Positions 41,546 through 62,892 of a stretch of DNA of 64,000 bases are shown one piece after another. The stretch is taken from contig NZ_CP016474.1 of NCBI RefSeq assembly GCF_001693255.1, forward strand, positions 1,692,661-1,756,660, in the 5' to 3' direction. Every line of letters begins with the position of its first letter. Position 1 is the first letter of the stretch. Source of the stretch: Picosynechococcus sp. PCC 7003. Its GTDB lineage: Bacteria > Cyanobacteriota > Cyanobacteriia > Cyanobacteriales > MRBY01. Below the pieces are notes generated by a model. The model did no database searches and was not told the origin of the DNA. It saw nothing but the letters and a program-made list of their open reading frames with translations. Position numbers and translations under genes: made by a program.

Positions 41546-41937
41546 ATGGCCAATACATACGAAGCAGTTATTGAACGCTGGAAGCAACTCCCTTCCGATT
41601 ATTCAGAAGTTAAACTAGAAAAGCATTTTATCGATGAATGTATTTGGCCATCGTTGGGATTAAACTTCACTCAAATAGAATCACAGATTAAGATTGGTTC
41701 AGGATTAAAGCCAGATTATTTAATCTTTTCCGATGACGATAAAAGAAAACCACTAATCACTGTTGAGGTCAAAAAGCGAGATCAAATTCTTGCAGAGTCT
41801 GCGGATGAATTCTTCATCGATAAATGCAAAGAAAATAAATATTATCAAGAATCAGTAGGCTATAAAACTGACGGAAATGGGATTCAACAATACCTCAACA
41901 AAGAGAGTGTAGATGGAGATAAGCTACCTCCCTATGG
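41546..41937 (+). pseudogene. 5' part of a nuclease-ParA fusion gene, split by an ISAs1 element
   Basis: Encodes ~131 native residues from ATG 41546 (MANTYEAVIERWKQL). It resembles the N-terminal nuclease domain of type I restriction R subunits (HSDR_N): LGLNFTQIESQIKIGSGLKPDYLIF followed by LITVEVKKRD, giving the D...ExK set of PD-(D/E)XK enzymes. The frame runs into the IS and stops there at 42016. Joining 41937 to 43178 with one copy of the 10-bp duplication continues the frame straight into a ParA domain (DKLPPYG then LVMNGDFFQIWKR). The ancestral gene would be 463 codons plus stop. Confidence 0.85.
41928..41937. repeat. Left 10-bp target site duplication
   Basis: CTCCCTATGG lies directly left of the element and is repeated exactly at 43168-43177. 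Confidence 0.95.
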
Positions 41938-43167
41938 CAGGGGCTACGCATCTAAAATAAAACCAGAGTCAGCAAGGATTTTAAGTAAAAAACCATTGTC
42001 CATGGCAGCCTTGTAACGCTTCATGGTGAGGCTGGTTTGAGAAGTCTCCTGACGAAGCAGATTCAACGTGAACCGCCTCATTAGGCTCATATTACGAGCC
42101 GAATGACCTTGGCGAATTCGAGAATTATCTTCTCCAAAGACCACGTCAAGACACCAATGAAGCTGATTTTCAATTCCCCAGTGATTGCGAATATGACTGG
42201 CAAACTCCTGATTTGTCGCTTCTATAGAACTGATAAAGAAGCGGATTTCGTGAGTAGTCTTATGCCAAAGTTGACGAGTTCCTTCCACAATGACGATGGT
42301 ACGGAGTTGCTGCCAAGGCTCCCGTAACTCTTGAGGCAAAACATGAGATGCTGGAATTTGCCAGATTGTTCTGGTTTCTAGACGCTGATGTCCCTTCTCC
42401 GTCTGATGCCATCCCGTTTCTCGCCATTCTTTGGCAGATTCTCTTTGCTTTTCAAACCAGGTTTTTACTGCTTTAAACAATCTACCCTGGTTGCCCTTGA
42501 GAGCCAGAATATAGTCTGCTTTAGCTTGACAAATCTGTTGGGCGATTTTCTTTTGAGTGCCCATGGCATCGATGGTCACAATACATCCTTTGAGCTCTAG
42601 TTGTGCGAGTAGTTGAGGAATGGCTGTAATTTCATTGGATTTTGTTTCCACAGCCTCTTGTCCTAACACTAGACGAGATGACGTTGCCCAAGCACTGACC
42701 AGTTGTAGGTCTTTAATGCCTTTTTCCCTATCGTAGGAGCCTCGTGAAGCTTTTCCATCTATGGCAATGACCTGAGCTGAGAGCTTTCCTGCTATTGTCC
42801 CTACCCAGTTGCGAAATTCTGCTTCTAATTGTTCTGAGTCTAATCTGGCAAATACCCTGGCAAAAGTATCATGGGAGGGGATGCCGTTGGGCAACTCGAG
42901 AAATTGCCTGAGCCATTCTTCTTTGGAATTTCCATAGGTTTCGATTCCTACCCAACTATCGGCTCCTGATATAGTGGCAAAAAGAGCGATAACGATGATA
43001 TCGACTAAGTAGTGTGCCCGTGTACGTTCTACTCTTGGGTCTTCTATTTCTCCAAAGTGCTTGTCAATACTGGCTTTGAGAACTTCGTTGTTAAATAGGG
43101 ATGCCATTCTTTTCACATTTTTCCTCTTTCCTCCTTTCTACACCTTTTTTTAGATGCGTAGCCCCTG
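41938..43167. mobile_element. ISAs1-family insertion sequence, complete
   Basis: The 1230-base element has perfect 20-bp terminal inverted repeats (CAGGGGCTACGCATCTAAAA) and identical 10-bp flanking duplications. This is the length range of duplications reported for ISAs1-family elements. It carries one intact transposase, oriented opposite to the split gene. Intact ends, exact duplication and an intact transposase suggest a recent insertion. Confidence 0.93.
41944..43116 (-). CDS. ISAs1-family transposase
   Basis: A 390-residue DDE transposase related to the H-repeat/YhhI proteins. Seen: HFGEIEDPRVERTRAHYLVDIIVIALFATISGADSW, IAIDGKASRGSYDREKG with the first Asp, and FRNWVGTIAG upstream. The catalytic-region sequence IRNHWGIENQLHWCLDVVFGEDNSRIRQG is near the end. 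GTG 43116 has a fair ribosome site (AGAGGAAAAAT); ATG 43107 is an alternative. The stop TAG lies in the left inverted repeat. It is not interrupted and may be active. Confidence 0.93.
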   Translation of the reverse strand: MKRMASLFNNEVLKASIDKHFGEIEDPRVERTRAHYLVDIIVIALFATISGADSWVGIETYGNSKEEWLRQFLELPNGIPSHDTFARVFARLDSEQLEAEFRNWVGTIAGKLSAQVIAIDGKASRGSYDREKGIKDLQLVSAWATSSRLVLGQEAVETKSNEITAIPQLLAQLELKGCIVTIDAMGTQKKIAQQICQAKADYILALKGNQGRLFKAVKTWFEKQRESAKEWRETGWHQTEKGHQRLETRTIWQIPASHVLPQELREPWQQLRTIVIVEGTRQLWHKTTHEIRFFISSIEATNQEFASHIRNHWGIENQLHWCLDVVFGEDNSRIRQGHSARNMSLMRRFTLNLLRQETSQTSLTMKRYKAAMDNGFLLKILADSGFILDA

Positions 43168-43177
43168 CTCCCTATGG
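43168..43177. repeat. Right 10-bp target site duplication
   Basis: CTCCCTATGG repeats the left flank exactly and belongs to the interrupted gene. Confidence 0.95.
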
Positions 43178-44177
43178 TCTAGTGATGAATGGTGATTTCT
43201 TTCAGATCTGGAAGCGCATTGACGGTTTAGTTATGCCGATGACAGATATTCAACGAATGACCGAAAAGACTATTCCGGCTCTGATGAAGCAGCTAAATTA
43301 TTGTCTTAATAATCCCTATAGAGCTTTGGTGACAGCTGTCTGGAATCAAAAAGGAGGCGTCGCCAAAACAACGAATACTATCAACATCGGTGCTGAGTTG
43401 GCGTTGGCGGGTAAACGTGTTTTACTAATTGATTTAGATTCACAAAACGATCTAACACGAGGGCTTGGTCTTATTCCAGATAAATATAATAGCTGGCTGC
43501 TCGAATGTGTTAAATCCATTTCCCAGAGAAAAATCAAAAACGCAAGAGAAATTCTCAATTCAGTTATTCAGCATCGAATTTTTCCCACCTCAGAAAAGGA
43601 GAAGCTAGAAATTGATGTTCTGCCCATTGGGAAATATGCATTAGATGAATTCCGTGAATCTAAAGGGCAATATCAAGGATTTTCGGCAGCTAAAGTTTTC
43701 CCAAGAATTATTGACTTATTGACACCTAGTTTTGATTATATTTTTATCGATACATCTCCTGCTGCAGATCAACTAACTCGTAGCTTGATGTACAGCATAG
43801 ACTCTCTACTAATACCGATCGACCATGGAAAAAAGTCGATTTATCATGGTGTACGTATCCATAAAAAAATCAAAGAAGTACGGGAATCACGCAAAAAGGT
43901 AAAGACTCTTCACTTAGGCCCGTGGAACCTTGGCTTAGTTTACAGTAACTGTCCGGCAGACGCAGGTAAAAGACTAGATCAAATGATTGACCAAGAACTA
44001 GATAAACATTGTTTCTCTGGCAAAAGATACAATGAAGTTATTCGCACATTTGCCCAGACTAAAGTTGCAGAATTCAAACAGATGCCTGTTGTCTGTTGGC
44101 GTCAATCTCAGATCACGAAATGCTACCAAGAGCTAGTTAAAGAAGTATTTATCAATCCAAATTTTATCAATGAATAA
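43178..44177 (+). pseudogene. 3' part of the nuclease-ParA fusion gene: ParA ATPase domain
   Basis: After the duplication the frame continues as LVMNGDFFQIWKRIDGLVMP and then a ParA-type ATPase. The deviant Walker A is NQKGGVAKTT (two Lys), the A' motif VLLIDLDSQNDLTRGLG and Walker B DYIFIDTSPAAD. Such ATPases drive plasmid partition or protein positioning; fusion to a nuclease domain is unusual. The ParA part alone is intact, and could be translated from ATG 43185 or from a start within the IS at 43101, so it may still be expressed as a 330-residue protein. Confidence 0.85.
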
Positions 44178-44180
44178 GCT

Positions 44181-44414
44181 ATGTCTATCTTAGAAGATTT
44201 ACCATTAAATGAATTAGAAGTTGGTGAATTAGTTCAAGTTCCTTGTGATTTTATCAAATCTAAAAATAAAGAAAAGTTTAACAAGATTATTTTGGAAAAT
44301 TTGGTTGAGCAACTCAAGCATTCCCAAAGAAATATTTTGCCAGTTATGATCAAACAGCTAGAGGAAGACCAATATGAAGCTATGCATAATACTTTTATCT
44401 TAGAGGATGTCTGA
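44181..44414 (+). pseudogene. Truncated partner gene, possibly ParB-like, cut by an IS5-family element
   Basis: Starts 3 bases after the ParA stop, so it was probably in the same operon. It encodes MSILEDLPLNELEVGELVQVP and then RNILPVMIKQLEEDQYEAMHNTFIL. The last three codons and the stop come from the IS. The segment LPVMIKQLEEDQYEAMHNTFIL resembles ParB/sulfiredoxin-fold N-termini of cyanobacterial proteins, where one expects further conserved residues that are missing here. The flank after the IS adds only LIKKINQLFGKN before a stop, so more may have been deleted. The ParB reading is moderately uncertain. Confidence 0.55.
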
Positions 44415-45306
44415 GAAGGGTATGGCGGATAAAAAAATAGAGATTTAGCCTGTAGAAGTACATAAATCTCTAATCTCAAAAATCATGTCTACATCCTATC
44501 CGACAGACCTCACCGATGACCAATGGTCTCTCCTTAAACCCCTACTTCCCTCAGCTAAATCGGGTGGTCGTCCCCGCTCCACTGACCTGCGTCAAGTCGT
44601 TAATGCTCTCCTCTATATCCTCATGGGTGGTATCGCCTGGCGCTTACTGCCCCATGATTTCCCCAAATGGCAAACCGTCTATCACTACTTCCGCCAATGG
44701 CGTGACGATGGCACCCTCGAACGTATTAACCAAACTCTCCATCAGTGGGAACGCACCACAGGTCATGACCACCCTCCTCACCGAGCTATGGGGTGGTGGA
44801 TTCTCAATCGGTGGATACAGCAACAATGATTCATCAGGATGTTGGAGTTGATGGAAATAAGAAAGTTAAAGGTCGCAAACGACACATCATGGTGGATAGC
44901 TTGGGCATTTTGATGGCCGTAGTGGTAACTGCCGCCAACACCGCGGAAGGTCAAGGATTAAAGCTATTGTTGGCACGAATCCAAAGGATGGGACTGAATC
45001 TAGAGTGTTTTTACCTGTTGTATGTGGATGGGGGGTATCACGGAGAAAGTCTTGTGCGCTGGGTAATGGACAAGTTTGGCTGGATATTGGAGAAAGTATT
45101 ACGTCCGGAGGAGTGCAAAGGATTCACAGCATTACCAAGGCGATGGGTAGTGGAGAGAACCTTTGGCTGGTTTTACTGGTGCCGCCGTTTGAGTCGAGAC
45201 TATGAATGTAATACGAGGAGTGCGGAAGCGTGGATATATCTAGCATCCATTCGCATCCTTCTGAGGCGCTTGGCGTAATCTTTACAATATTTTCTCAGAC
45301 ATCCTC
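44403..45306. mobile_element. IS5-family (IS427-like) insertion sequence
   Basis: This 904-base element has 15-bp inverted ends (GAGGATGTCTGAGAA) and a short TTA repeat on both sides (44400-44402, 45307-45309), consistent with a 3-bp duplication, though so short a repeat can arise by chance. It carries a transposase in two frames. It ends the possible ParB-like gene and abuts the minor-pilin operon. Confidence 0.87.
44485..45278 (+). pseudogene. IS5-family transposase, split into two frames
   Basis: The first frame (44485-44829) holds [38 protein letters not shown] and [21 protein letters not shown]. The second frame, -1 relative to the first and clear from 44793, holds [32 protein letters not shown] and RRWVVERTFGWFYWCRRLSRDYE. 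Some IS5 elements use programmed frameshifting, but no A-rich slippery run is present near 44770-44793, so a mutation is more likely. Probably inactive. Confidence 0.82.
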
Positions 45307-45319: not shown

Positions 45320-45850
45320 TCAACCAGTTGTTTGGCAAGAACTAGCAGAGACATTGCCCGAGATATCGCCGACATAAACCCCTTTACGAATGACGCCAAT
45401 GCCATTGGAAATGATTAAACAACGTTGGTATTGTGACTGGGTATCTGCCAGGACGATAGTGCGCAGCGGGCTGGTGTTACCTCGGTAATTAAAATTAATC
45501 GCTTTGCTATTGGCATTGTTGTATTTGATCACAACATTTTCAAGCACCACATCCTCCGTTACCCGACAATCAGAGGACACTTTTGCATTCTCGCTATTGT
45601 TGGCGGGCAAAATGACCCGACAAGTGCGACTCTGGCGAATGGCTTCCTGTTGGGTACGTTGCAACAAACCCTGTAAAGCCGTAAAGTCTTGTCTTGCGCC
45701 TGCCCGTGCCAAAAAGCCGAGGAGTGACGGGGTTGCAATTCCTGCCAAAATACCAACTAGCAGCAAAACCCCCAACACTTCAAACAGTGTGAAGCCTTGG
45801 GTTTTGAGGGGTCTAAAAGGTGCTTTGGCCCTAGAGAATAATAGTGACAT
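45320..45850 (-). CDS. GspH/FimT-type minor pilin
   Basis: A 176-residue type IV pilin-like protein. Prepilin cleavage would fall in QGFTLFEVLGVLLLVGILAGIATP after the Gly. The GspH-like segment LLQRTQQEAIRQSRTCRVIL follows, with cysteines that can form a disulfide. It is the last gene of the minor-pilin operon (51316 to 45320). Its 3' end overlaps the interrupted ParB-like gene's flank by 26 bases. Confidence 0.87.
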   Translation of the reverse strand: MSLLFSRAKAPFRPLKTQGFTLFEVLGVLLLVGILAGIATPSLLGFLARAGARQDFTALQGLLQRTQQEAIRQSRTCRVILPANNSENAKVSSDCRVTEDVVLENVVIKYNNANSKAINFNYRGNTSPLRTIVLADTQSQYQRCLIISNGIGVIRKGVYVGDISGNVSASSCQTTG

Positions 45851-45957: not shown

Positions 45958-48762
45958 TTATTTTGCTCGACCACAAACTCTACTCATTGGACTAGATATG
46001 CCATTTGCTTCTGCAACAACTCCGTAGCAAATGTTTGTATTTTTATCGATTGGGCCATCCGTAGCTGTTGATGTTTTGATATTATCTAAAACTAAATCAT
46101 TAGGTGTACAGTCATTACTAGTTGAGCAGAAATATAGCTTGTAACTTGTTACATTCGTGTTTAAACTCCAACTAACCTTGGCATCGTAGCGCTTATCTGA
46201 CCGCTGAGTAAATTCAAGTTTTAGACCTTCCGGTGCAGTTAAACCTTGTATCGCACCACAAAGTTGCTCACTCGCAGGACTAATCACCGAACCCTTAGTT
46301 GCTTTAACGACGAAACACCATTCATTACCAACACTCGGATTATTATCTGGCGTAAAGGAAAGATTTGTTGTATTCGCTGTGTCCCCTGATAATGGATCAC
46401 AGATTCCCTGCCCTTGACAACTAAACACTCGATAACCCGTTGCTCCAGTAACGGCTGACCAGTTCACAGTTGGTTTCACCAAAGATGAGTTATTCAAAGT
46501 AATTACAGGCGCAGCCAAACTCGTTTCGAGGGTCGTACAGGTTTGGCCACTGGTGGTTTGGGTGCCAGAGGTAACCTCAATGGCGTAACAAATGTTAGTG
46601 CCTTCAGCAATACCAGAAACACTATTGGTAAAACTACCGCTACCTGTATTTTGTGTCGTTCTGGTGGATGCCACTGTGGTGGGTGTGCAGTTTTCTCCAG
46701 TACAACGTTTTAGAGCAAGACTGTAGGTTGGTGATGCTGTACTGCCCCCTGTAATCGAACTCCAGGCAATATTGGCTTCGGAAGCATCCGGGTCAATGGT
46801 GACAACAAGGCCGCTCAAAAGTAGAGGATCAATTTTTGTTTCACACACAGTTTCCGTCTGGTCTGTTGCTCCGTCTGCGTCACTGACTTGCACGGCATAG
46901 CAAACATTCTGACCTCTAGCAATGCTACTGACATTATCTGCATATCCGGATACACCTGAAGTTACATCAGAAGTCAGCAAGCTGGGGGTACAGCTTGTGT
47001 TGGTCGTATTACACCGATAAAGATTATAGGTATAGTCTGGGGTGCCCCCTGTCGCATCAGGCCAGGTAATATCCATCTCGGCGCTACTAACATCAAGGGT
47101 CACTGTCAAAGAATCCGGCGCAGCAAGGGGCGCATCTTTAATTAGACATTCTGTTTCCCCAATACTGGTAGCAGCACTGTTGTCTGTCACTTGCACAGCG
47201 TAGCAAATTTTATCGCCGCTATTGACTGCTGAAATATCATCTCCAGAGAAACTTTTATCTTCAGTCGCCAAGTTCAGAGATGTGGTTGGAGTGCAAGTTT
47301 GGTCTGGGGCGACGTCACAGCGCAATAGATCGTAAGTGTAGGGATAGTCACCACCAGAGGCACTCAACCAAGTGAGATCAACGGTATTATTAGCTTGTTC
47401 TGTAATCTTTTTAATCGGTGGTGCAGAGAGAGGTTGTCCCTTGATGATGCATTTCGGATCGCCCTGGGCTATTTCTCCTATTTGATCTTTGACAACAACG
47501 GCATAGCAAATTTTTTGACCATCGCTGATGCCCGTCACAATATCAGGGAAGTAGGAAGTACCAGCAATTTCTGGATCGCGCACCGATGTTGTGGGGTCAC
47601 AATCATCTGCATTTCCTGCGACATCACAACGCTTCAGACCATAGAGGTAGCCGGGATCACCACCGGAAGCGGCCCGCCACTCAAGGCCCACTTCTCCCTG
47701 GGATTCCCAAATGTCTTCAATTTGCGGCGGGATTAGTTCTTCTACTAATTCGACACAAACAGGATTACTGGTTCTGGTATCTCCTAAGTTATCAACAACC
47801 TTCACTTCATAGCAAACGGTATTGCCTCGGGACAGACCAGAGATATTATCACTGTAGGTTCTGGTTGTTAATTCGCTGGCGACCGTGTCAGAAGTAGCTT
47901 GATCGATTTCGCAGGTATCCGGCCCCTCACTGCAACGATAGAGGGTATAGGAATAGGGTTTTTCCCCGCCGAGAGCTTCACTCCAGTTAACCGTCGCAGT
48001 CGTCAAATCACTACTTAGGGCCACTGATTCGATAGAAGGGTTAATTAGGATATCTCCCTGGGGATTAATACTCCGCGCAAAGGCGGAACTACTAACACTT
48101 AAAACTTCAGATGTATTATTACTACCCTCAAAATCATTAACTTCACCGTGGAGCGCTAGATCGACTTTATAAATAGCATTACCTGTTGCGGAGGTCTCTT
48201 CTTCCAAACAAGCACGAAAGCCTGTATTCCCAATTGTCGTGCTTCCTTCCGGACAAGTAATGTTTGGAGGAACAGGAATATTTGTGTTCTCAGAAATGGC
48301 ATCAACGAGAACTGTCCAATTAACGGCATCTGGATCATCTCCTGTTCTATACTCTTTCCGTCGGAGCACCATCGGCCCTACCCAGGGGGAATTGTCATCT
48401 TTTTCTGCTATGGAATATTCAATGGTTCGTGAGTTGATGTTGTCTCCTATTTCTGGGAAATATTCTAAAACTAAGGTGTCATCGGTGGCATCGTTGGTTG
48501 CAACATCAAGAACACGCGATCGCCGGACATCTTCTGTGATGTAATCAATGGCCCGGTTGAGTTGAGAACGCCGCTGGGTACGGGCTTCGGTGCGATTGCT
48601 GGCATTGAGGGTGGCGACCATGGCTGTGCCAAGACCAGTAGCCACAATCCCGCTCAGGGTGATCGCCAGGAGCACTTCAATAACAGTAAAGCCTCGGTTT
48701 CCTTGTGAGGTCGATCGTCTATTGAGCAAATTAAAATAGTATTTTAGGAGCCAACGTCTCAT
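45958..48762 (-). CDS. Large minor pilin with seven Cys-rich fibronectin-III-like repeats
   Basis: A 934-residue protein. The first ~60 residues are a prepilin helix (NRGFTVIEVLLAITLSGIVATGLG), and up to ~240 a PilW/GspJ-like pilin domain. From about 240 to the end there are seven tandem ~95-residue beta-sandwich repeats. Most follow the plan W...GG...Y.Y.L.RC....C.P......CYAV.V.D......C. The four cysteines per repeat suggest intradomain disulfides. It is much longer than ordinary minor pilins and probably displays an adhesive arm at the pilus tip or in a pseudopilus; this is inference. The gene carries a HIP1 site only near its 5' end. Confidence 0.88.
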   Translation of the reverse strand: MRRWLLKYYFNLLNRRSTSQGNRGFTVIEVLLAITLSGIVATGLGTAMVATLNASNRTEARTQRRSQLNRAIDYITEDVRRSRVLDVATNDATDDTLVLEYFPEIGDNINSRTIEYSIAEKDDNSPWVGPMVLRRKEYRTGDDPDAVNWTVLVDAISENTNIPVPPNITCPEGSTTIGNTGFRACLEEETSATGNAIYKVDLALHGEVNDFEGSNNTSEVLSVSSSAFARSINPQGDILINPSIESVALSSDLTTATVNWSEALGGEKPYSYTLYRCSEGPDTCEIDQATSDTVASELTTRTYSDNISGLSRGNTVCYEVKVVDNLGDTRTSNPVCVELVEELIPPQIEDIWESQGEVGLEWRAASGGDPGYLYGLKRCDVAGNADDCDPTTSVRDPEIAGTSYFPDIVTGISDGQKICYAVVVKDQIGEIAQGDPKCIIKGQPLSAPPIKKITEQANNTVDLTWLSASGGDYPYTYDLLRCDVAPDQTCTPTTSLNLATEDKSFSGDDISAVNSGDKICYAVQVTDNSAATSIGETECLIKDAPLAAPDSLTVTLDVSSAEMDITWPDATGGTPDYTYNLYRCNTTNTSCTPSLLTSDVTSGVSGYADNVSSIARGQNVCYAVQVSDADGATDQTETVCETKIDPLLLSGLVVTIDPDASEANIAWSSITGGSTASPTYSLALKRCTGENCTPTTVASTRTTQNTGSGSFTNSVSGIAEGTNICYAIEVTSGTQTTSGQTCTTLETSLAAPVITLNNSSLVKPTVNWSAVTGATGYRVFSCQGQGICDPLSGDTANTTNLSFTPDNNPSVGNEWCFVVKATKGSVISPASEQLCGAIQGLTAPEGLKLEFTQRSDKRYDAKVSWSLNTNVTSYKLYFCSTSNDCTPNDLVLDNIKTSTATDGPIDKNTNICYGVVAEANGISSPMSRVCGRAK

Positions 48763-48828: not shown

Positions 48829-49371
48829 CTATTGCAATGAACACTTAGCTGGGTCTGTTGAACTATCGCCGGGTGGGTAATTGCCATTACGGACTAAGCC
48901 CAAACCACGGGAAACAATGACACATTTTTGGTTCCCCAAATTTCCATTTTTTGTGAGAATCAGTACCAAATCATTTGTAAGGAAGTTTCTGCTTGGATCA
49001 CTGGTTCTACCTCGGAAATCAAACAAAAAATCGGTCGGTTTAACAGTGGCACCATTATGACGCATGGTGATCCCCTCTAAACTGCGATCGCCTGTGACAA
49101 AACAATCACTGTTAAGGGTTGGATTGGTGGCAGGACTCGACGGCAAAATAAATCGACAACTAATACTACGGCGGATCGCTTGGCGTTGGACTTCCTCTAA
49201 AGCCCCAAAAAGCTCACTCCTGGCACTGGTTAACTTACTGCGATTGATAAAACCAAACATCACAGGCGTGGATATGGTTGCCAAAATGCCTGCCATAAAA
49301 ATTGCGACCATCAACTCAATGAGTGTAAATCCGGCCGAGTTACGTCTAATTCCGACAGGCAAAGAAGGCAT
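48829..49371 (-). CDS. GspH/FimT-type minor pilin
   Basis: About 180 residues from ATG 49371. The prepilin motif is NSAGFTLIELMVAIFMAGILATISTP. The GspH-like segment ALEEVQRQAIRRSISCRFIL and the later KCVIVSRGLGLVRNG mirror the 45320-45850 protein, so the two are paralogues within one operon. Its first 26 bases overlap the end of the preceding gene. An in-frame start further upstream (49449) lies well inside that gene and is less likely. Confidence 0.85.
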   Translation of the reverse strand: MPSLPVGIRRNSAGFTLIELMVAIFMAGILATISTPVMFGFINRSKLTSARSELFGALEEVQRQAIRRSISCRFILPSSPATNPTLNSDCFVTGDRSLEGITMRHNGATVKPTDFLFDFRGRTSDPSRNFLTNDLVLILTKNGNLGNQKCVIVSRGLGLVRNGNYPPGDSSTDPAKCSLQ

Positions 49372-49849
49372 CAGGGATAATCTCCGAATAATATTCTGCG
49401 ACGATTCGCCCGCTATCTGGATCTTCAACTCGATAACTGACTTCCACAATGTTGTAAGGAGGCTGATCCGGAATACTTAAATTTCGGTTCATATTGTATT
49501 CTTTGTTCACCAGAGTAGGAGGGTCAGGAGCCTTAATCTGATTGATTAATGCTTGGGCATAACCCTTTTCTGGGGTAGTTGCGTCGCAGTCAGGCGAGGC
49601 ATTTGAGAAAGACAAAGCAGCCTCATATTTAATTTCGTCAAAGTCTGACTGGATTGCATTCATCGCTTCAGATGCACGCTGGGCCTGTACTCGCAAAACA
49701 ACACTAACAAATGTGGCCTCGGCTGTCACAAGCACAAAGATTGTCGAAACAATAATCCCTGCCAAGACTTCAATAAAGGTAAAGCCTTGCTGACCTTGTT
49801 TAGGGACAGAGCTAGAGTTGTTTTTTGTCGTCCATCGAGGTTGCATCAT
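49346..49849 (-). CDS. PilV/GspI-like minor pilin
   Basis: A 167-residue protein with QQGFTFIEVLAGIIVSTIFVLVTAEATF as prepilin helix and no GspH signature. The C-terminal region includes YNIVEVSYRVEDPDSGRIVAEYY, a PilV/GspI-like pattern. It overlaps the next pilin by 26 bases and follows the PilX-like gene by six, so the operon is tight. Confidence 0.83.
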   Translation of the reverse strand: MMQPRWTTKNNSSSVPKQGQQGFTFIEVLAGIIVSTIFVLVTAEATFVSVVLRVQAQRASEAMNAIQSDFDEIKYEAALSFSNASPDCDATTPEKGYAQALINQIKAPDPPTLVNKEYNMNRNLSIPDQPPYNIVEVSYRVEDPDSGRIVAEYYSEIIPDAFFACRN

Positions 49850-49855: not shown

Positions 49856-51316
49856 TTAGTTTGTTGCTTCTCTTCTCTCCCACGTAACCACGCCTGTGTT
49901 GACAACTTGTGCTGGCCGTTTGAGAGAAATGCTTTCAAAGGTTGTACCAAAGGCATTGCCCAAAGCTTCAGGAGCACCCGGGGGAATATTAACAACTGCG
50001 CCACTGGCATTGGAATTAGAAGCGTCCCAAATTTTTCCCCAGATAACGCCGTTCATGCCGTCGCCGTTGCCGCCACCATTGATTCCCACCTGGGCATCAG
50101 GAGCATAGACAAAGAATGTCGAACTGGCTGTCCCGTTAATGCGGATATTTTGAGAGACTGTGCCTGTACCACTATCTGGCTTACCAAAAATTGCAAAGTC
50201 ACCAAAATCACCTTCATGGATAATTTGGCGGTTCCCAGAAATTGTTAAATCACCAGAGAGGAAGACAATCACAGGCGCGTTTGTTGTGTTAATCGTCCAG
50301 GTTTTAACGCCACCACCAATATCAATGTCTTCTGCTTTGTAAACATAGGCTTGATAGGCCTGGGCTGGGCCTGCACCATCAGGATCAAAGGAAACTGTTT
50401 GATCACCCCCGCTAGGTAGATCTCGAACATTACTGCCTAAATCTGCGGTAATTGTTTGTGGGGGAACCGGCAAGGGCGGCAGATTGGGCTCACCTAACCG
50501 AGGAATGACGTTAGTGAGTTTAGAGTTATTCTGAGCCCCCATTGCATCTCGATGGATTAAGTTTGCATAGTCTGCTGGGGAAATATCGGCGGCACAAGCG
50601 TCTTCTAAGTTAGAAAATTGACATCTTGTGCAAATAATATTGCTTTTTTCATTCGGATCAGCACTGACGTTAGGAATTAAAGAGACATCGTTGTTGCCGA
50701 GTTCAATAAAGTTTTCCATGTACATACCAGGGAATGTCGATTCCCCTTCGTTGGAAAATTCACCGACATACACAGATGCTTCAAGGATAGCTGTACCTCG
50801 ATCACCGGATAAACTTCCCTCTACAGTAAAGGTGCCTGTGCCCGTTCGAGAATCATAATCATAGGCAAGGAGTTGAAATTCACCTTTGTTGTCAACTGAT
50901 ATACTGCTGTCACGAATCTGAGCCACCGCTAAAGGAATATCTTCAGAAGCATTCTCTTCACCATCACTTTCTTGGTTATTGTATTCGCTACAGCCACCGT
51001 CAAAAACTTCTGCAGTTGGCTTCAGGCTATCGTACTTCTCTTTTGTCCATTCGTTCTTGTCAAGCTTTAGAAAGATACTATTTTCCTCAGAGCGAAGTAC
51101 CCCAAGCACTCGGTTTAGACCTGCTTCGGCGATCGCCATATTTTCTTGGCTATGTTTCTGTAGCGTCGAGGCGACTTGATCATCATTGGAACGGAGGAGC
51201 ATTGTTGCACCGGTGACCACCAAGAAAAGACCTAGCCCCAAAGCAACCACGAGACTAAAACCGCTTTCCTTAGTCTGTTTTGTTTTTAGGAGGAACTGGA
51301 GTAAGAATGTATACAT
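49856..51316 (-). CDS. PilX-like protein, first gene of the minor-pilin operon
   Basis: A 486-residue protein starting MYTFLLQFLLKTKQTKESGFSLVVALGLG, a PilX-type N-terminus (helix with SGFSLVV before the membrane span, then AEAGLNRVLGVLRSEE). The rest is extracellular and Asn/Gly/Asp-rich. The C-terminal half (VFLSGDLTISGNRQII, FVYAPDAQVGINGGG, GVIWGKIWDASN) reads like a right-handed beta-helix. Proteins of this layout occur with type IV pili and exopolysaccharide secretion in cyanobacteria. ATG 51316 is preferred over an in-frame start 66 bases upstream. Confidence 0.8.
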   Translation of the reverse strand: MYTFLLQFLLKTKQTKESGFSLVVALGLGLFLVVTGATMLLRSNDDQVASTLQKHSQENMAIAEAGLNRVLGVLRSEENSIFLKLDKNEWTKEKYDSLKPTAEVFDGGCSEYNNQESDGEENASEDIPLAVAQIRDSSISVDNKGEFQLLAYDYDSRTGTGTFTVEGSLSGDRGTAILEASVYVGEFSNEGESTFPGMYMENFIELGNNDVSLIPNVSADPNEKSNIICTRCQFSNLEDACAADISPADYANLIHRDAMGAQNNSKLTNVIPRLGEPNLPPLPVPPQTITADLGSNVRDLPSGGDQTVSFDPDGAGPAQAYQAYVYKAEDIDIGGGVKTWTINTTNAPVIVFLSGDLTISGNRQIIHEGDFGDFAIFGKPDSGTGTVSQNIRINGTASSTFFVYAPDAQVGINGGGNGDGMNGVIWGKIWDASNSNASGAVVNIPPGAPEALGNAFGTTFESISLKRPAQVVNTGVVTWERREATN

Positions 51317-51597
51317 GGTGGTTTTAACCTCGCAGTGTTTATTGAAATTCCGCAATATTCTAAGCAACGACCTGGGCAGCACTGCTTCTACCTCTAATTC
51401 TTAGGATGCCCACAACTTGAGGTGTTTGTCGCATTTTACAGATTAAACTTTATATATCAGCTTTTTCAGCCGAGACAATCAACCAAAAGTTGCTTGAGGA
51501 CAACACATTCAAAGATAAGCTGCCTTAAGTTAAATTTAAGTCTAAAGGTAGATATTATCAGTGATTTTAATCACGTATGACACTTACGTAACTTTCT

Positions 51598-52473
51598 TCA
51601 GATGCGCTGGGCGGATACGTAGCGATCGCCCCCAGCAAAATCATCAATGATCTGAATTTGGGTGTAGCGGCCATTGTCTGCGAGTAATTGCGCCACCGCT
51701 TCCCCCTGACCACGCATCATTTCCACGAGCCAAATGCCACCAGAAACCAAATAATCCGGCGCTTCATTCACCAAAATTCGCAGGTCGGCTAACCCGTCTG
51801 TGCCCCCATCAAGAGCACTATGGGGTTCATGACGATAAACTTCTGGCTGTAAATCCGGCAGTAGGGCAGCGGGAATATAGGGGGGATTGGAAACCATTCC
51901 CGCCACCTGTCCCCGCAAATGTTGTAGCGGCTCCCACCAACTGCCTTGGTAAAACTGAATTCGATTTTGAAAGCCGTAGGCGATCGCATTTTTTCGGGCG
52001 ACTCCAAGGGCGGCGGCACTCTGGTCAACGGCATGGATCGTCGCTGCCACAAAACTCTCTGCCAAACCCAAGGCGATCGCCCCACTGCCCGTCCCCAGAT
52101 CGACCCAGTGGCCTGCGTGTAAATTTGTTGGGCTAGTCCGCGCCAAATCGATTAAATACTCTGTTTCGGGCCGAGGGATTAACACCGCCGGGGACACGAA
52201 CAACTCAAAATTTCGCCAGGGCGCTTTCCCGACGAGATATTGCACCGGAACTTTTTCCTGGCAGCGCCGTTCCCAGAGCTGTGAAAGTTCAGCCAAAGAC
52301 ACCTGACTCTGTACAGCTTCCCGGATTCCTAGCCGCAAACTGAGCCGATCCACGCTGGTCAGCCCCTGGAGAAACCAGTCCACTTCCTCAACAGAAATAT
52401 CGGTGGCGATCGCCTGGGTCTGGGCCCACTGTCGCCACCGTCCTAAATCCTGAGCCGCAATGATCTCAGTCAA
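51598..52473 (-). CDS. prmC: Peptide chain release factor N5-glutamine methyltransferase
   Basis: Methylates the GGQ glutamine of RF1 and RF2. The 291-residue protein has the PrmC/HemK N-terminal helical region, IPRPETEYLIDLA, the SAM motif WVDLGTGSGAIALGLA, and the active-site MVSNPPYIP (NPPY). The start MTEIIAAQDLGRW is at 52473. Confidence 0.95.
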   Translation of the reverse strand: MTEIIAAQDLGRWRQWAQTQAIATDISVEEVDWFLQGLTSVDRLSLRLGIREAVQSQVSLAELSQLWERRCQEKVPVQYLVGKAPWRNFELFVSPAVLIPRPETEYLIDLARTSPTNLHAGHWVDLGTGSGAIALGLAESFVAATIHAVDQSAAALGVARKNAIAYGFQNRIQFYQGSWWEPLQHLRGQVAGMVSNPPYIPAALLPDLQPEVYRHEPHSALDGGTDGLADLRILVNEAPDYLVSGGIWLVEMMRGQGEAVAQLLADNGRYTQIQIIDDFAGGDRYVSAQRI

Positions 52474-52497
52474 GAATCAACCGTTCCCAACACCCTA

Positions 52498-53340
52498 TTA
52501 TCGTTGTTGCTGTTGCTGCTCAATCACAGCTTGGATCAATTGGGCCGATTCCGCTGAGGGAATGAGGGTCATCGACTCCAAAAATTCCTGTTCCTCTGTG
52601 GGCAGATCCTCATCGAGTAATTTGGCAATAAATACCTCAAGGGGCATCACATTAATACTTAGCTCTTCATCTTCTGGGAACGCATCCAATTGCTCAAGAA
52701 TCGGCTGTACCTCAAAGAAAACGGGGATTTCGCCGTTACCATTGTTGTCATCCCCTGCCAGGGTTGGGAAAGAAACAATATCCTGTCCATTGGCATCCTT
52801 TTCCTGAATCGAGAGGAAAAATAAAGGGACACCAGGGAAGTTTTCCTGTTGCGTCACTTGGGCCGCTGCATTTAACTGGGCCATGGTCGGCAAAAACTTA
52901 AAGGTTAAATCTTCTGCTTCGTCACTTTGAGCAAACTGGTAGATCTTATCCAAGCCGATGGGCAGAATGTTGGCCTCTTGCCACAGGGCCGCTTGGGCTT
53001 CTAGTTCAGCGACAATTTGGGGATCGGCATTGGGTTTTGCCCGTTCTGCATCGAGGAGTTTTTTCGATTCTGTCTGGCGGGCCGCCACGAGATTTTCTGC
53101 ATCCGCAAGACTGACAAAAACCCCCGTAACTCCCGACTCACCGCCATTTTGGTCAGTGACCGTCGCGAAAATTGGCTGCCCTTCGTCGTTGATCAGCATA
53201 TACATCGGAATTGGCCGGAGCTTTTCGACAACCGTTGCCTCAGGAAGCGCCAACACACTGCTATTAACGCCCAAGATTGTTCCGGCAATTACCGTACCCA
53301 TCAATAAGGCTTTTTGACCCAAACGAACCAGACTTTTCAT
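52498..53340 (-). CDS. Tic22-family protein
   Basis: A 280-residue exported protein homologous to plastid Tic22. The signal peptide (ALLMGTVIAGTILGVNSSVLALP) ends near residue 35. Family blocks: RPIPMYMLINDEGQPIFATV, VTGVFVSLADAENLVAA, LPTMAQLNAAAQV and GVPLFFLSIQEK. Cyanobacterial Tic22 is a periplasmic chaperone-like factor for outer-membrane protein biogenesis. The gene ends in a glutamine tract (QQQQQR). It is 24 bases upstream of prmC. Confidence 0.9.
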   Translation of the reverse strand: MKSLVRLGQKALLMGTVIAGTILGVNSSVLALPEATVVEKLRPIPMYMLINDEGQPIFATVTDQNGGESGVTGVFVSLADAENLVAARQTESKKLLDAERAKPNADPQIVAELEAQAALWQEANILPIGLDKIYQFAQSDEAEDLTFKFLPTMAQLNAAAQVTQQENFPGVPLFFLSIQEKDANGQDIVSFPTLAGDDNNGNGEIPVFFEVQPILEQLDAFPEDEELSINVMPLEVFIAKLLDEDLPTEEQEFLESMTLIPSAESAQLIQAVIEQQQQQR

Positions 53341-53748
53341 AAATAAAACCTCGAACAAAATAACTGCAAGATTAGAAAAATTAATCCTAAAGAAATAAGC
53401 CGTCAAAATGCTTTGTATTACGTCTTAGAAATCCCCACTAAAAAAGCGGCAATCTATTCCATGATCTCGATAAACTGGGGCTTTCCATGGGTGACGGATA
53501 TTGCAGTTTACCAACGTATTCTAGAGACGTGACTCCGTAAATTGGAGTTCCATTTCGTAAATGTTTATACTCAAGTCCCATTGCAAATAGAAAAGTATCG
53601 GCATAGACTTGCCAATGATTTCGACTCTAACACAAAAAATTCAATTATTCTGGGGCGATCTAGGCTTTTTTATGACGTGCCTAGGCTGGCCTGGAGTGGT
53701 CAAATTAACGGGGGCGATCGCCACCAGAGAGTCTTAAAAATCAAAAAA
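53341..53748. other. Gene-free interval with no supported feature
   Basis: This is 408 bases between the Tic22 gene and tRNA-Pro. It contains a 71-codon plus-strand open frame (53542-53757) whose residues look random and which runs into the tRNA; I do not count it. A small ACTCC/GGAGT inverted repeat lies near 53532. Two HIP1-like sites (53656, 53714) are the only other notable points. Confidence 0.45.
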
Positions 53749-53822
53749 TCGGGATGACAGGATTCGAACCTGCGGCATCCTACTCCCAAAGCAGGCGCGC
53801 TACCAAGCTGCGCTACATCCCG
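53749..53822 (-). tRNA. tRNA-Pro (anticodon TGG)
   Basis: On the minus strand the acceptor CGGGATG pairs with CATCCCG plus discriminator A. The D arm has GCGCAGCTTGGTAGCGC, the anticodon loop is CTTTGGGAG with TGG, and the T arm has GGTTCGAATCC. Length is 74 bases; CCA is not encoded. Confidence 0.94.
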
Positions 53823-53875
53823 TTAAAATACCTCAGCTAGTATAACTTAGCCTTAGACTATTTGTGAAATCATTT

Positions 53876-54388
53876 TCAGCTTGGGTACCAAAACATCCCT
53901 TTAATCCCTTCTGGATCAAGGATAAAACCCAACCGCCGGTAAAACTCTACTACTTGGGGATCAGCAAAAAGCGTAATGTTGCTGATATCTGACTCCCGCA
54001 GTTTTTTGATCATGAACTGCATGAGGCCCTTACCTAAGCCTTGGCTCTGGAACTGGGGATGGATCACCACATCCCACACCGTCGCGTTAAAAGCACAGTC
54101 AGAGGTGGCCCGGGCAAACCCGATGAGACGCCGCCGTTTGCTATTGCGCACTTCCCAGACCGTGACCACCAGAAAGCTATGTTGGATTGCTTTGCGGACT
54201 TTACGAATGGGACGTCTGGCCCAACCCACTTGATCACAAAGTTCTTCTAGCTCGTAGAGATCAAGGTCGCGATCTAGGCTAAAGAAAATACGCGGTTGGC
54301 CAGCAGACTCCAGTTGTGAATTACTGATCTGGGCATTTGGAACATCAACGGTGGGATTAAATAGTCGTTTTAGGAAACCCATGCTCAT
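53876..54388 (-). CDS. GNAT acetyltransferase, Ycf52 type
   Basis: A 170-residue GNAT protein of the Ycf52/NSI group. The acetyl-CoA motif is [17 protein letters not shown], with [13 protein letters not shown] before it and VEFYRRLGF after it. Chloroplast relatives acetylate plastid proteins and melatonin precursors; the cyanobacterial substrate is unknown. ATG 54388 and ATG 54382 are both possible starts. Confidence 0.88.
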
Positions 54389-54614
54389 TTTATGGGGGCG
54401 ATCGCCTCGGATGAAGTCGCAAGACACGACAAATAAATATTCTTGATAATCTTACAAGATCTTTTGCGAAGGCTGACTGGGGGCTGCTAGGGCACCAGAG
54501 TCAAGAAAGCGCAAAATTCCTGGAGTAAACTATAGGAAATAAGGGTTATTCGGAGATCAGCATACGCATTTTTATTTTCTGAAGTCTTTTTTAGCCACAC
54601 CGCCCCCATTACCT

Positions 54615-55337
54615 ATGGCCGCCACCCTCAAATCCTCTAATTTAGATCTACTGAAACGTTTTAATCGTTCATTTCCCGAATTTTACGAACAATTCGTCAG
54701 TAGTGAAGCACAATTTCAAAATCTCCAGTTAGCCTATCAGCTTTACCGGGCCAAGCGGCCGATCGTTGAAATTAGTCCCGATGGCAACCGGAGCATTTTC
54801 CAGTTTGCCTACCGAAATCAATCCTTTCTCTTGAGTGATATTTTCGGGATTCTCCTCGCCTACGGTCTGAAGATCCATAGCCTCAGCCTGTATGGGCAGA
54901 TCCAAGCGCCAATGCTCGTTTTCATCAAGCTCAGAATTGATCGTAATGACCAGGCCCTCACCCCCAATACCGCCGGGAATGTCTGTCGAGCAGTGCGGGA
55001 AGCCCTGGCGGGCCGCTTTGCCGTGGAAGAGATGTTGGCCGTCGAGTTTGATTTTGCGGCGGGGCTCGCTGAGGTGCATACGGAATTTTACATTGACCCT
55101 GTGTTCCATCTGCCGACCCTGATCATCGAGGCGAAGGAACAAGAAGGTCTGTTGTACCGAGCAATGTATGCGATTTGGCAGGAAGATCTGTTAGTAATTA
55201 ATGCCAATCTGGTGTCTTGGCGCGGCAACACCAGGCTAATTTTGTACCTTTTTGGCCCCAATGAAAGTGCAATTCCTGAGTATTTAGGCCAGCGGATTGC
55301 GAATAATGTGCGCGATCGCCTGCTGCATATTTCATAA
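54615..55337 (+). CDS. Hypothetical protein with ACT-like segments
   Basis: A 240-residue soluble protein. Residues ~60-120 (SFLLSDIFGILLAYGLKIHSLSLYG) and ~175-235 (GLLYRAMYAIWQEDLLVINANLVSWRG) each have a helix-strand plan like ACT domains, as in GlnD or other amino-acid-sensing proteins. The resemblance is by eye. I believe related genes are common in cyanobacteria but no name comes to mind. It is alone, in the same direction as the next gene. Confidence 0.65.
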   Translation: MAATLKSSNLDLLKRFNRSFPEFYEQFVSSEAQFQNLQLAYQLYRAKRPIVEISPDGNRSIFQFAYRNQSFLLSDIFGILLAYGLKIHSLSLYGQIQAPMLVFIKLRIDRNDQALTPNTAGNVCRAVREALAGRFAVEEMLAVEFDFAAGLAEVHTEFYIDPVFHLPTLIIEAKEQEGLLYRAMYAIWQEDLLVINANLVSWRGNTRLILYLFGPNESAIPEYLGQRIANNVRDRLLHIS

Positions 55338-55429
55338 ATGTAAATGTCCCTAGGCCGAGAAAGCTGGGCGATCGCTCTTGGGTAAAATAAAGAGTGATCG
55401 AAATGTGAGCCCATTGGTAAAAAGACTTT

Positions 55430-56317
55430 ATGGCAACAACGGTAATTCGCGATGTGCTCCATGCCTATGACTTTACCCCCAGCGATCGCCCCTCAGATCC
55501 TGCCGGAGAAGATCCCGAATCTCCGGTGCTTGTATTTATCCATGGTTGGCTCCTGAGTCGCGCCTATTGGCAACCCCTCATTGATCTTTTAAAGCAAGAT
55601 TATGCTTGTCTGGCCTACGATCTTCGGGGTTTCGGAGAATCTGCCGCCAAAACCCAAGGCGATCGCTACCCAGACCAAGGCTACACCCTTCAAGACTACG
55701 GCACCGATCTACAGCATTTACTCGAAACCCTCAACCTCAAACATGTTTGGCTTGTGGGTCACTCCCTCGGCGGGAGCATCGCCCTGTGGGGGGCCGCCAT
55801 TTGTCCCAAACGGGTGCGGGGCATTATCTGCATCAATGCTGGGGGGGGCATTTATCTTAAAGAAGACTTTGAAAAGTTTCGCAATGCCGGCCAAAACCTC
55901 GTCAAAAATCGCTGGCCTTTCCTGAAACATATACCTTTATTGGACTTATTTTTTGCCCGGTTGATGGTGCATCGTCCCCTCTCAAGACAGTGGGGAAAAC
56001 AGAGAATTCATGACTTTCTCCAGGCTGATGCCACTGCCGCCCTCGGTGCCCTCCTCGAAACGACCACCGAACAGGAAGTGCACTATCTACCGCAGTTGGT
56101 GGCCCAATTAGTCCAACCGGTTTATTTTTTGGCCGGACAGCAAGATCCGGTGATGGAACTGAAGTATGTGCGCCATTTAGCCAGCTTTCACCCTAGTTTT
56201 GGTTGTATGGGCAATAATGTCCGAGAAATTGATCACTGCGGTCATTTAGCAATGGTTGAACAAACCATCGCAGTAGCAGAAAATATTCGCGAAATTTTAA
56301 ATCAAGATCACCCCTAA
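55430..56317 (+). CDS. Alpha/beta-fold hydrolase
   Basis: A 295-residue hydrolase. Seen: LVFIHGWLLSRAYW (oxyanion region), YDLRGFGES, nucleophile elbow GHSLGGS, catalytic Asp in AGQQDPVMELKYV and His near DHCGHLAMVEQ. A complete triad is therefore likely. The substrate is unknown. Confidence 0.9.
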   Translation: MATTVIRDVLHAYDFTPSDRPSDPAGEDPESPVLVFIHGWLLSRAYWQPLIDLLKQDYACLAYDLRGFGESAAKTQGDRYPDQGYTLQDYGTDLQHLLETLNLKHVWLVGHSLGGSIALWGAAICPKRVRGIICINAGGGIYLKEDFEKFRNAGQNLVKNRWPFLKHIPLLDLFFARLMVHRPLSRQWGKQRIHDFLQADATAALGALLETTTEQEVHYLPQLVAQLVQPVYFLAGQQDPVMELKYVRHLASFHPSFGCMGNNVREIDHCGHLAMVEQTIAVAENIREILNQDHP

Positions 56318-56401
56318 AAGGACTGTAAAAGTGCAGGGAGATTGTCTACAATGCTTAGTAGAGAAATGTTATTGTGCTCTGCCCAAACTTTGGAGAAGCT
56401 T

Positions 56402-56716
56402 ATGCTACACCGCAAGATTAACCAAATCTGCAACGATGAAAAAGAAGTTTGTATATTCTTGCGGGATCAACAGCGCTGGATTGAAAATGCGACTATTACG
56501 GCGTTTGAAGGAGAAATTCTCACAATCCGTTATGAAACGGAAGAAGAGGACGAAATTTCCTCTTGGGAAGAATTGGTGCGCCTAGAAAGCGTTGGCGCGA
56601 TCACCCAAAAACTCGCCTCGGTGCCGAAGATGGATGTGGAACTTTCCATTGCCGAAGATTGCCCAGAAGCGGAGCAAATTTTCCCCCATTTCCCCGATTC
56701 AAAAAATCAAGACTAA
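56402..56716 (+). CDS. DUF6679-type conserved cyanobacterial protein
   Basis: A 104-residue protein starting MLHRKINQICNDEKEVCIFLRDQQRWIENA and containing YETEEEDEISSWEELVRLESVGAITQKLASVP, which I associate with DUF6679. It is a small, acidic, beta-rich protein. ATG 56402 fits the family start better than ATG 56351 or the in-frame start at 56342. Its TAA overlaps the TAG of the facing gene (CTAA at 56713-56716). Confidence 0.82.
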   Translation: MLHRKINQICNDEKEVCIFLRDQQRWIENATITAFEGEILTIRYETEEEDEISSWEELVRLESVGAITQKLASVPKMDVELSIAEDCPEAEQIFPHFPDSKNQD

Positions 56717-58365
56717 ATCTCTTCTGATGGATCTGGAGCCTGGGCGATCGCCTGAAACTCTGGACAATACCCCTCTGGTGTCACCTTAAAGCGATACAGG
56801 GGAGATTTTGGTTGTTGGCACCGCAATCCTTTTTGAAAGCGGCAGTTGAGGCAGCAATCTAAGTTGTTAAATCGTTGGGCATCGACATTATGGCGTAGCA
56901 GTTCCCGCTCGTTAATGCCGCGCAGCACAAGTTCTTCCCCCTGCCAGCGCGCTTCCACCAGACCCGTATCCGCAAAGGTTTGCCAACGGGGATCATCGTT
57001 GAGGCTATTGGGCAGGCTGATGGTAATCCAAGCCCCCACTTCATTAATTTCCCCTTCGTATTCCGTGCTGTGGGGGCCTTCTGGTTGGATAAACGTGGCC
57101 CCAATGGGAAGCTCGACTAACTTTCCGGCGGCGGGACAATGGAGTTGATAGCGGCTTTGGAGTTCTTCGAGGGCGGTGAGATCTTCCAAGTCTTGGCTAG
57201 AACCATGGAAAAAGACAACGTGTTGGGGCCGCAAGTTGTGGATTAACTGGGTGGTATTGCGACCGTCGCTGTGTTCGGCGAGGAGATAGGTTTCGATTTG
57301 GACGTGTTTTTTAGGGGCGATCGCCGCCAGGGGAGGCGCTTCAATATCTAACCAAACCCCTGGATGTTCTGGTAAGAGGAGTAAACAAGGGCATTGCTCT
57401 GCTTCGCAATACTTGGCGAAGTCATTGGTGTAATCGGTGATGATCACATGGTTGCCCTGGTGCAGGTCTGGATATTCACCTGGGGCGAGGCGATGCATCC
57501 GGGGGTAGACCCGGTCATCCCAAAAGAGGGCCTGGTGACGGGCAAAATTTTGCACTGGATTTGGCAATTCTGGCAAGATCTCCAAATACAAATCGCACCC
57601 ACGGGCCACTTGGCCTTCTACCCAAATATCAACTTTTTTGCCGGTAAATTGGTGGTGCGATCGCAATAATTTTAAGATTTCCTGGCCGAGGCCGAGGCGC
57701 GGTACGGGCAAAATCACCGACTGACCAGAATCTAAGGCGTCGAGAATCCGTTGGGTGAGGTATTTTTCCTGTTGACGGCGGTGGGGATGCCGCATCGTAC
57801 CATAGCTACCCTCGATGATCAGCACATCGGGCTGGAAACCCCGCAAAGCCTCAATGGATAAGCCATTCACCAACTGAAAATGGGAAACGGAAAAATCTCC
57901 CGTGTAAAATACCGTGTAATCTCGCTCTGGGGTATGGAACGTAAACAAAGCCGCCGCCGCCCCCGGCAAATGTCCGGCGGGGAAAAGTTGGAGGGTTAAA
58001 TTGTCGGCAATTTCGACGGGCGATCGCCAGGGCACCACTTGACCTAAATCAGACGGAACCTTTGCCCCAGGCCAGTTGAGGGGCAACAATGTTTGAGTCG
58101 CAGCACTCAGATAAATGGGGACTTCCGGAAAATGGCGATGTAAAGCGAGGATGCCTTCGGCGTGATCCCGATGGGCATGGCTACAAAAAACGGCATCGGG
58201 CATTTTGTCCTGGGCGAGGAGCCGCGCAAAATCCGTGACACCACAGTCGAGTAGCAGTTGATAAGGCCCCAATTTAAGAAGAAGACAAACACCTTCTGCT
58301 TGTTGACCAGTGGCGTAGGGCAGGCAGGATAATTGAGGCAAATCGGGGGCGACGGCAGGGGGCAT
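56713..58365 (-). CDS. Metallo-beta-lactamase/beta-CASP-like hydrolase with C-terminal Cys cluster
   Basis: A 550-residue enzyme. The metal site is SHAHRDHAEG (HxHxDH), with a later GHLPGAA, TGDF and a C-terminal AEHSDGRNT His. These fit RNase J or CPSF-like beta-CASP nucleases, but a nuclease role is inference. The last ~55 residues hold DCCLNCRFQKGLRCQ and EGYCPEF, four or five cysteines that could hold a zinc or Fe-S cluster. The gene's stop overlaps the stop of the DUF6679 gene. Confidence 0.85.
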   Translation of the reverse strand: MPPAVAPDLPQLSCLPYATGQQAEGVCLLLKLGPYQLLLDCGVTDFARLLAQDKMPDAVFCSHAHRDHAEGILALHRHFPEVPIYLSAATQTLLPLNWPGAKVPSDLGQVVPWRSPVEIADNLTLQLFPAGHLPGAAAALFTFHTPERDYTVFYTGDFSVSHFQLVNGLSIEALRGFQPDVLIIEGSYGTMRHPHRRQQEKYLTQRILDALDSGQSVILPVPRLGLGQEILKLLRSHHQFTGKKVDIWVEGQVARGCDLYLEILPELPNPVQNFARHQALFWDDRVYPRMHRLAPGEYPDLHQGNHVIITDYTNDFAKYCEAEQCPCLLLLPEHPGVWLDIEAPPLAAIAPKKHVQIETYLLAEHSDGRNTTQLIHNLRPQHVVFFHGSSQDLEDLTALEELQSRYQLHCPAAGKLVELPIGATFIQPEGPHSTEYEGEINEVGAWITISLPNSLNDDPRWQTFADTGLVEARWQGEELVLRGINERELLRHNVDAQRFNNLDCCLNCRFQKGLRCQQPKSPLYRFKVTPEGYCPEFQAIAQAPDPSEEI

Positions 58366-58495
58366 TGGGCACAAAAAATCCTAGAATCCCAAGGAGGCGA
58401 TCGCCGCAGGAGATCCTAGAGTATCTCAACGAACAATAAAAGATCTGGTTAAGGGAACTTGTGGCGAAACCACCCAAAAATGATGGGCAGGCACA

Positions 58496-58618
58496 TTAGT
58501 GGGCGGAACCATTGCCGTGGTAATCATCGGAATCATAAAAACCATTTTGGGTGCCGAAAAAGAGACAAGCCACAGTAAAGACACCTGTCAAAGCCAATAA
58601 AAGTAATTTGATATCCAT
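58496..58618 (-). CDS. Small 40-residue single-pass membrane protein
   Basis: A 40-codon frame starting at ATG 58618 reads MDIKLLLLALTGVFTVACLF and then FGTQNGFYDSDDYHGNGSAH. One membrane helix (~3-22) and a polar, Asp/Gly/His-rich tail are plain. Codon use fits a real gene and the size and layout match photosystem or NDH-1 small subunits of cyanobacteria; it is not PsbY, PsbN, PsaM, PsaI or Ycf12 by sequence. No RBS of usual strength is seen. A second gene-like feature is absent on the other strand. Confidence 0.65.
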   Translation of the reverse strand: MDIKLLLLALTGVFTVACLFFGTQNGFYDSDDYHGNGSAH

Positions 58619-59599: not shown

Positions 59600-59851
<252 letters not shown>

Positions 59852-62861: not shown

Positions 62862-62892
62862 ACTTTTAACTGTTCTTTTGATCTAACAAATA

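Follow-up and report, generated by a model that had tools for sequence, protein, structure and literature searches.

A minor-pilin operon of Picosynechococcus sp. PCC 7003 that encodes a pilin with a long, cysteine-rich FN3-like arm and appears to be of foreign origin

Results

The window, that is the whole stretch of DNA analysed here (64,000 nucleotides), carries on its minus strand an open reading frame of 934 amino acids that a preliminary description made from the sequence had already delimited, although without naming the strand; read on the plus strand the same span contains 34 stops. This gene, called J hereafter, belongs to an operon of five genes transcribed in the order K-like, I-like, H-like, J and H-like (K-I-H-J-H). 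The preliminary description placed J in a tight operon with four other pilins, and four pilin-like genes do accompany it, the K-like one lacking both Glu5 and a match to the N_methyl family (Table 1). Subunits of the H, I, J and K types thus occur together, as in the HIJK minor pilins of type IV pili (T4P) and type II secretion systems (T2SS), which form a tip-located priming complex capped by the subunit without Glu5 (PMC10191384). The gene order is common to the congeners and Prochloron, in which the K-like gene has the same position and likewise lacks Glu5. The match of the I-like subunit to HpsB reached 32 bits (cut-off 150), and the best NCBIfam match of the second H-like subunit was ComGD, below threshold. 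The pilus machinery of the genome includes three ATPases of the T2SSE family and one prepilin peptidase. A search for PilY1 gave no match in this genome but none in the controls either and is thus uninformative, and a search of Rfam around the operon gave no match.

A second H-I-J-K set (384, 151, 372 and 812 amino acids) was found on the plasmid-like contig C3 (253 kb), so that the strain has two minor-pilin sets, one of them plasmid-borne. The K-like protein of this plasmid set matched HpsA with 53 bits (cut-off 400). Just upstream of the set lies a gene for an 861-amino acid protein with near-identical tandem repeats (YPDANNPPWQKGIYGTGTREDPLRD...). Two smaller contigs of this genome match Picosynechococcus plasmids at 86-90%.

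Table 1 Features of the operon, of its flanks and of related loci (lengths in amino acids; L numbers denote loci outside the window).
Feature	Position	Strand	Length	Remarks
K-like subunit	49856..51382 (likely start 51316)	-	508	GFSLVVAL, no Glu5; DUF7305 (PF23981) E 4e-6
I-like subunit (PilV/GspI/HpsB-like)	49346..49849	-	167	HpsB (E 9e-8) and PilV, both sub-threshold
H-like subunit 1 (FimT/GspH-like)	48829..49449 (likely start 49371)	-		N_methyl E 2e-8; GspH/GspG sub-threshold
J	45958..48762	-	934	
J, pilin part (residues 1-238)	48049..48762	-		leader, long N-terminal helix, beta head, Cys170/Cys185
J, FN3-like repeat 1 (residues 239-338)	47749..48048	-		
J, FN3-like repeat 2 (residues 339-442)	47437..47748	-		
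J, FN3-like repeat 3 (residues 443-540)	47143..47436	-		
J, FN3-like repeat 4 (residues 541-640)	46843..47142	-		domain modelled, pLDDT 93.6
J, FN3-like repeat 5 (residues 641-743)	46534..46842	-		
J, FN3-like repeat 6 (residues 744-838)	46249..46533	-		best match: penultimate repeat of Prochloron J
J, FN3-like repeat 7, terminal (residues 839-934)	45961..46248	-		best match: terminal repeat of Prochloron J
H-like subunit 2	45320..45850	-	176	GspH (PF12019) E 3e-6, above cut-off
Conserved flank, prmC and Tic22-like gene	51598..53406	-		90% and 97% identical to PCC 7117
Other flank	41546..45278			rearrangement breakpoint relative to PCC 7117; HsdR-like (restriction-gene) remnant, two insertion sequences
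DDE transposase (other flank)	41944-43116	-		
ParA-like ATPase (other flank)	43101-44177	+		
Split IS4/5-type transposase (other flank)	44485-45278	+		
Armless J orthologues			207 and 188	same operon place; 0 repeats
J of G069	L073:478-1710		410	one Cys-FN3 repeat, C-terminal, on a Pro/Thr/Ser linker
J of G003 (Limnothrix RL_2_0), G004 and G005				three to four repeats and another Cys-bearing insert
Extra two-Cys domain, Limnothrix-type J	J gene L033:1781-3952 (about residues 530-620 of the protein); also L032, L034			between or after FN3 repeats
J of Prochloron SulCav_FS08			880	six repeats
J of PCC 7117 and G001	L035:5203-7671, L036:5793-8264			PASTA-like repeats with Cys and one terminal FN3-like domain
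H-I-J-K set, contig C3	L094:7435-12802			
Tandem-repeat protein, contig C3	L094:3810-6395		861	

The N-terminus of J is that of a prepilin, as had been proposed. It carries a type III leader (class III signal peptide, GNRG/FTVIEVLLAI) with the cleavage site after G24, in which the G/FxxxE motif (RG/FTVIEVLLAI) is followed by a hydrophobic helix, and it passes the cut-offs of both Pfam N_methyl (23.1 bits against 21.2, E 5e-5) and TIGR02532 (20.5 bits against 16.3). The PilW/GspJ-like domain also claimed for J would correspond to its head of about 235 amino acids, which the arm follows; the predicted model places a helix at residues 3-57 and the strands of the head at 60-205 (mature numbering). 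The matches to known families are weak, with 19 bits for the gspJ model (cut-off 64.85) and 40.4 bits for HpsC (NF038304, cut-off 200, E 2.5e-10), which leaves J outside HpsC, and we call the protein a J subunit on the strength of its place in the operon and of these weak GspJ and HpsC matches. A phmmer search of the whole protein against the PDB returned nothing useful. The sole Pfam match of whole J besides N_methyl was to Kre9_KNH, an Ig-like model (E 4.5e-6); we regard this label as misleading since the profile and fold searches described below point to FN3.

The arm consists of seven repeats of 95-104 amino acids (about 100) with exactly four cysteines apiece, which accounts for 28 of the 30 cysteines of J, the other two being in the head. 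The plan initially proposed for most repeats, RC...C...CYAV...C, is thus present in all seven as regards the four cysteines but is looser in its letters, RC being found in five, CY in six and the literal CYAV in three. Spacing is 5-9 residues between the first and second cysteine (C1-C2), 27-33 for C2-C3 and 17-19 for C3-C4, and random placement of 28 cysteines would put four into every repeat with a p of about 2e-4. When a profile of six repeats was run against the seventh, each scored 23-79 bits; about 1000 shuffles of each gave top scores of 5-14 bits. The longest exact direct DNA repeat inside the gene is only 13 nt, which points to domains that are old and have diverged. Overall the arm is acidic (pI 4.2, 41 K+R against 85 D+E); repeat 7 is near neutral (pI 7.8) and the other six have a pI of 4.1-4.6. 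A set of 18 repeats taken from four genomes shows no variation at the core Trp, at C1 or at C2 and very little at C3. An earlier alignment of 20 repeats had taken complete repeats, so that its invariant cysteines were partly a result of selection, and the 18-repeat set is the fairer one.

We predicted the structure of repeat 4 with AlphaFold2 from 18 alignment rows and obtained a beta-sandwich with its strands in FN3 order (pLDDT 93.6), so that the absence of such a sandwich, which was to count against a tip adhesin in the preliminary description, was not observed. A profile of the 18 repeats run against the PDB had FN3 domains at the top, namely the Fn3-like protein 3mpc (7e-8) and titin (5e-6), followed by myomesin and fibronectin. 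Foldseek with the repeat 4 model likewise retrieved mostly FN3 domains (probability 1.0, TM about 0.55-0.75), with a best E of 2e-3 and none below 0.001. The Pfam fn3 model matched only 2 of the 18 repeats at all (best E 0.08) and its gathering score was not reached. By predicted structure the repeats of J are therefore of a divergent, Cys-rich FN3 type. The model of the whole mature protein shows a long helix, the head and seven sandwiches with a mean pLDDT of 74.8, and its pTM of 0.35 is too low to fix the orientation of the domains or to tell a straight arm from a bent one. The strand map of the predicted repeat puts C1 and C2 around the C-C' turn, C3 on strand F and C4 on strand G. We infer two disulfides per repeat, C1-C2 and C3-C4; in the only Prochloron repeat without C3, C4 is missing as well, which fits the second pairing. 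No recognised binding domain or ligand-site signature was found in the repeats, Pfam included.

Relatives of J were then sought in other genomes. A scan of contigs with the single protein found none and an alignment-based profile scan found ten. Of 390 genomes sampled from the class, 296 encode a J-type head (E <= 1e-8). In the list of best places from this draw the open frame was longest in the present genome (948 codons), then in PCC 7117 (823), with 596 and less thereafter. The Cys-FN3 repeat is rare, being matched only in this genome and in the distant cyanobacterium G069 within the same draw, from whose list G003-G005 and Prochloron, all of which carry it, were absent. Comparison of repeat number, which the preliminary description had proposed across strains and which we ran across species, gave 0, 1, 3-4, 6 and 7 repeats, with PASTA-like repeats in two congeners, PCC 7117 and G001 (PF03793, E 4e-10 and 1e-12). 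PASTA repeats are more familiar from cell-wall kinases and penicillin-binding proteins. The prepilin segment, whose absence from homologues was also to count against a tip adhesin, is present in every full-length homologue examined. In the head alignment the armless homologues stop at ...FAR(S/A), where the arm begins in other J proteins, which indicates that the arm was grafted onto a pilin. Orthologues in the same operon place thus differ in the type and number of arm domains, and on this sequence comparison the arm of J is exchangeable.

The preliminary description was right about the fold and the make-up of the operon, in so far as the predictions go, but the apparent replacement of the whole operon had gone unremarked. 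An unbroken alignment with PCC 7117, at 90.3% DNA identity, covers positions 51603 to 64000 of the window; its limit at 51603 coincides with the 3' end of prmC. Beyond it, all five operon proteins are only 31-41% identical between the two genomes, with flanks at 90-97%. PCC 7117 and G001 keep 75-85% identity in K, I, H1 and J even though their flanks are less related (72-78%), which makes the operon of the present genome the odd one. In a tree of the concatenated operon this genome is sister to Prochloron (support 100/99), whose operon is the nearest relative found, and a clade of this genome, G001 and PCC 7117 was rejected by the AU test (p 0.0002; 1e-5 for K alone). Taken singly, the genes for I and H1 and the head of J gave trees that did not reject that clade (p 0.08-0.11). 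The G+C content of the operon is 45.7 vs 48.8%. On its other side the genes rsmH/fabI are 93 kb away in PCC 7117 and their relative orientation has changed. Among the few near genomes compared, the sequence evidence suggests that the whole minor-pilin operon appears to have been replaced by a foreign allele from another lineage.

Discussion

According to its predicted structure, J is a modular pilin with an unusually long, Cys-rich arm. We think it probable, by analogy with better known pili, that the operon builds a minor-pilin tip on which the arm of J is displayed as an adhesin, and that operon and arm were exchanged together. After cleavage by the prepilin peptidase the minor pilins would assemble first and come to sit at the tip, with K, which lacks Glu5, on top; such a location fits the HIJK literature (PMC10191384). 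The head of J would join this tip complex and leave the arm displayed, at an estimated length of about 24 nm if extended (7 x ~3.5 nm). The arm may then bind a surface, a polysaccharide or another cell, whereupon retraction would pull on it or cells would flocculate, and two disulfides per repeat would keep the domains folded under load and may lend the arm the rigidity proposed at the outset. Our best guess is thus an arm that binds cells, exopolysaccharide or surfaces.

FN3 domains frequently serve just as spacers, and PASTA repeats can do so too. The arm might accordingly not be adhesive at all but lift the tip past the S-layer and capsule, or mask it from phages and grazers, with its turnover driven by phage or grazer pressure rather than by choice of ligand. 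This would agree with the lack of a recognised binding domain on the repeats and with a replacement of the whole operon that resembles surface-antigen exchange. The terminal repeats, however, are the positionally conserved ones, the last differs from the others in charge, and G069 displays a single such repeat on a linker. These three observations suggest that the FN3-like domain itself does something, and we consider a spacer or shield unlikely.

Another function suggested at the outset was the binding of DNA, and an arm that captures DNA for natural transformation would be in keeping with the need for minor pilins in the transformation of other cyanobacteria (PMC12288463), with the ComGD match of the second H-like subunit and with the pI of the last repeat. 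Binding of DNA is nevertheless unlikely for most of the arm, which is acidic, and Synechocystis uses PilA5 as its transformation pilin and PilA9-12 for motility and flocculation (PMC12288463); we therefore give this function little chance. Slighter still are the prospects of an Hps-like pseudopilus for polysaccharide export that would not be part of a pilus: HpsC and HpsB are the best NCBIfam matches of J and the I-like subunit, but both fall far short of their cut-offs, and the set with the HpsA match sits on the plasmid contig of the same genome. Least credible is that the operon was never exchanged and changed rapidly where it stands, as minor pilins can and as the three single-gene trees would allow, given the PCC 7117-G001 pair whose operon is as similar as its flanks, the concatenated and K trees, the sharp DNA boundary and the shift in G+C content.

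The nearest tested analogues of J, taken as an adhesin at the tip, are PilB and PilC of S. sanguinis, in which domains are likewise grafted onto the C-terminus of a pilin, vWA in PilB and Ig-like plus lectin in PilC, and adhesive domains are displayed in this way by modular pilins (PMC8179133, PMC9934059). In PilC an Ig-fold module stands between pilin and lectin and the protein has been modelled in a pilus-capping complex (PMC8179133, PMC9934059). J differs by its seven tandem four-Cys FN3 domains, by the lack of a recognised lectin or vWA domain and by its length, 934 amino acids compared with 860 (12 repeats) for the most extreme protein named in a 2021 census of more than 1,200 modular pilins in 264 architectures (PMC8179133). 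A census based on domain databases would miss repeats of the J type since they fall below the Pfam fn3 cut-off. Core HIJK operons of T4aP and T2SS combine the same subunit types, with K lacking Glu5 (PMC10191384), but here J has an arm of 700 amino acids and a second H-like subunit follows it.

In Synechocystis PCC 6803 the pilA9-pilA10-pilA11-slr2018-slr2019 operon is likewise a five-gene minor-pilin operon with roles in flocculation and motility (PMC6755745, PMC5924778). It is needed for flocculation (PMC6755745), and its minor pilins are needed for motility (PMC12288463). The likeness drawn here is one of make-up, and no FN3 or disulfide arm is part of that operon as described (PMC6755745, PMC5924778). 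The PilV shufflon of plasmids TP114 and R64 also alters pilus binding by exchanging the C-terminal part of a minor pilin (PMC9045228). We saw no invertible cassettes at J, where the longest exact direct repeat is the one of 13 nt and DDE transposases lie beside the operon; in place of a local recombinase, the whole operon would have been exchanged between lineages. In KilLMN/TadEFG tips one minor-pilin subunit likewise bears a variable C-terminal domain, but these are Tad-type with other pilin families, and the relevant passages of the source describe no FN3 repeats (PMC12075869). To our knowledge the long Cys-rich FN3 arm, its swap for PASTA at the same place and the operon-level replacement are apparently new; we found no paper on FN3- or PASTA-armed cyanobacterial minor pilins in the open-licence literature, which is weak evidence.

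How a single pilus machine acquires different functions from its sets of minor pilins is an open question in cyanobacteria (PMC12288463). Picosynechococcus, to which the transformable laboratory strain PCC 7002 belongs, offers a natural experiment on it: between flanks that are almost identical the minor-pilin operon occurs in two very different forms, and the arms are of two unrelated types. When modular pilins are counted by means of domain databases, a class of long arms is overlooked. Swapping operon and arm together between cyanobacteria would change what the pilus binds and leave the machinery untouched. More tentatively, cyanobacterial T4P could carry exchangeable tip cassettes: the HIJK operon of five genes beside prmC would be replaced as a unit between lineages, and each version would come with a Cys-braced arm of its own, of FN3 or PASTA type, or with none. 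If so, the surfaces, partners or phages for which a pilus is specific would be a matter of horizontal inheritance, much like a serotype.
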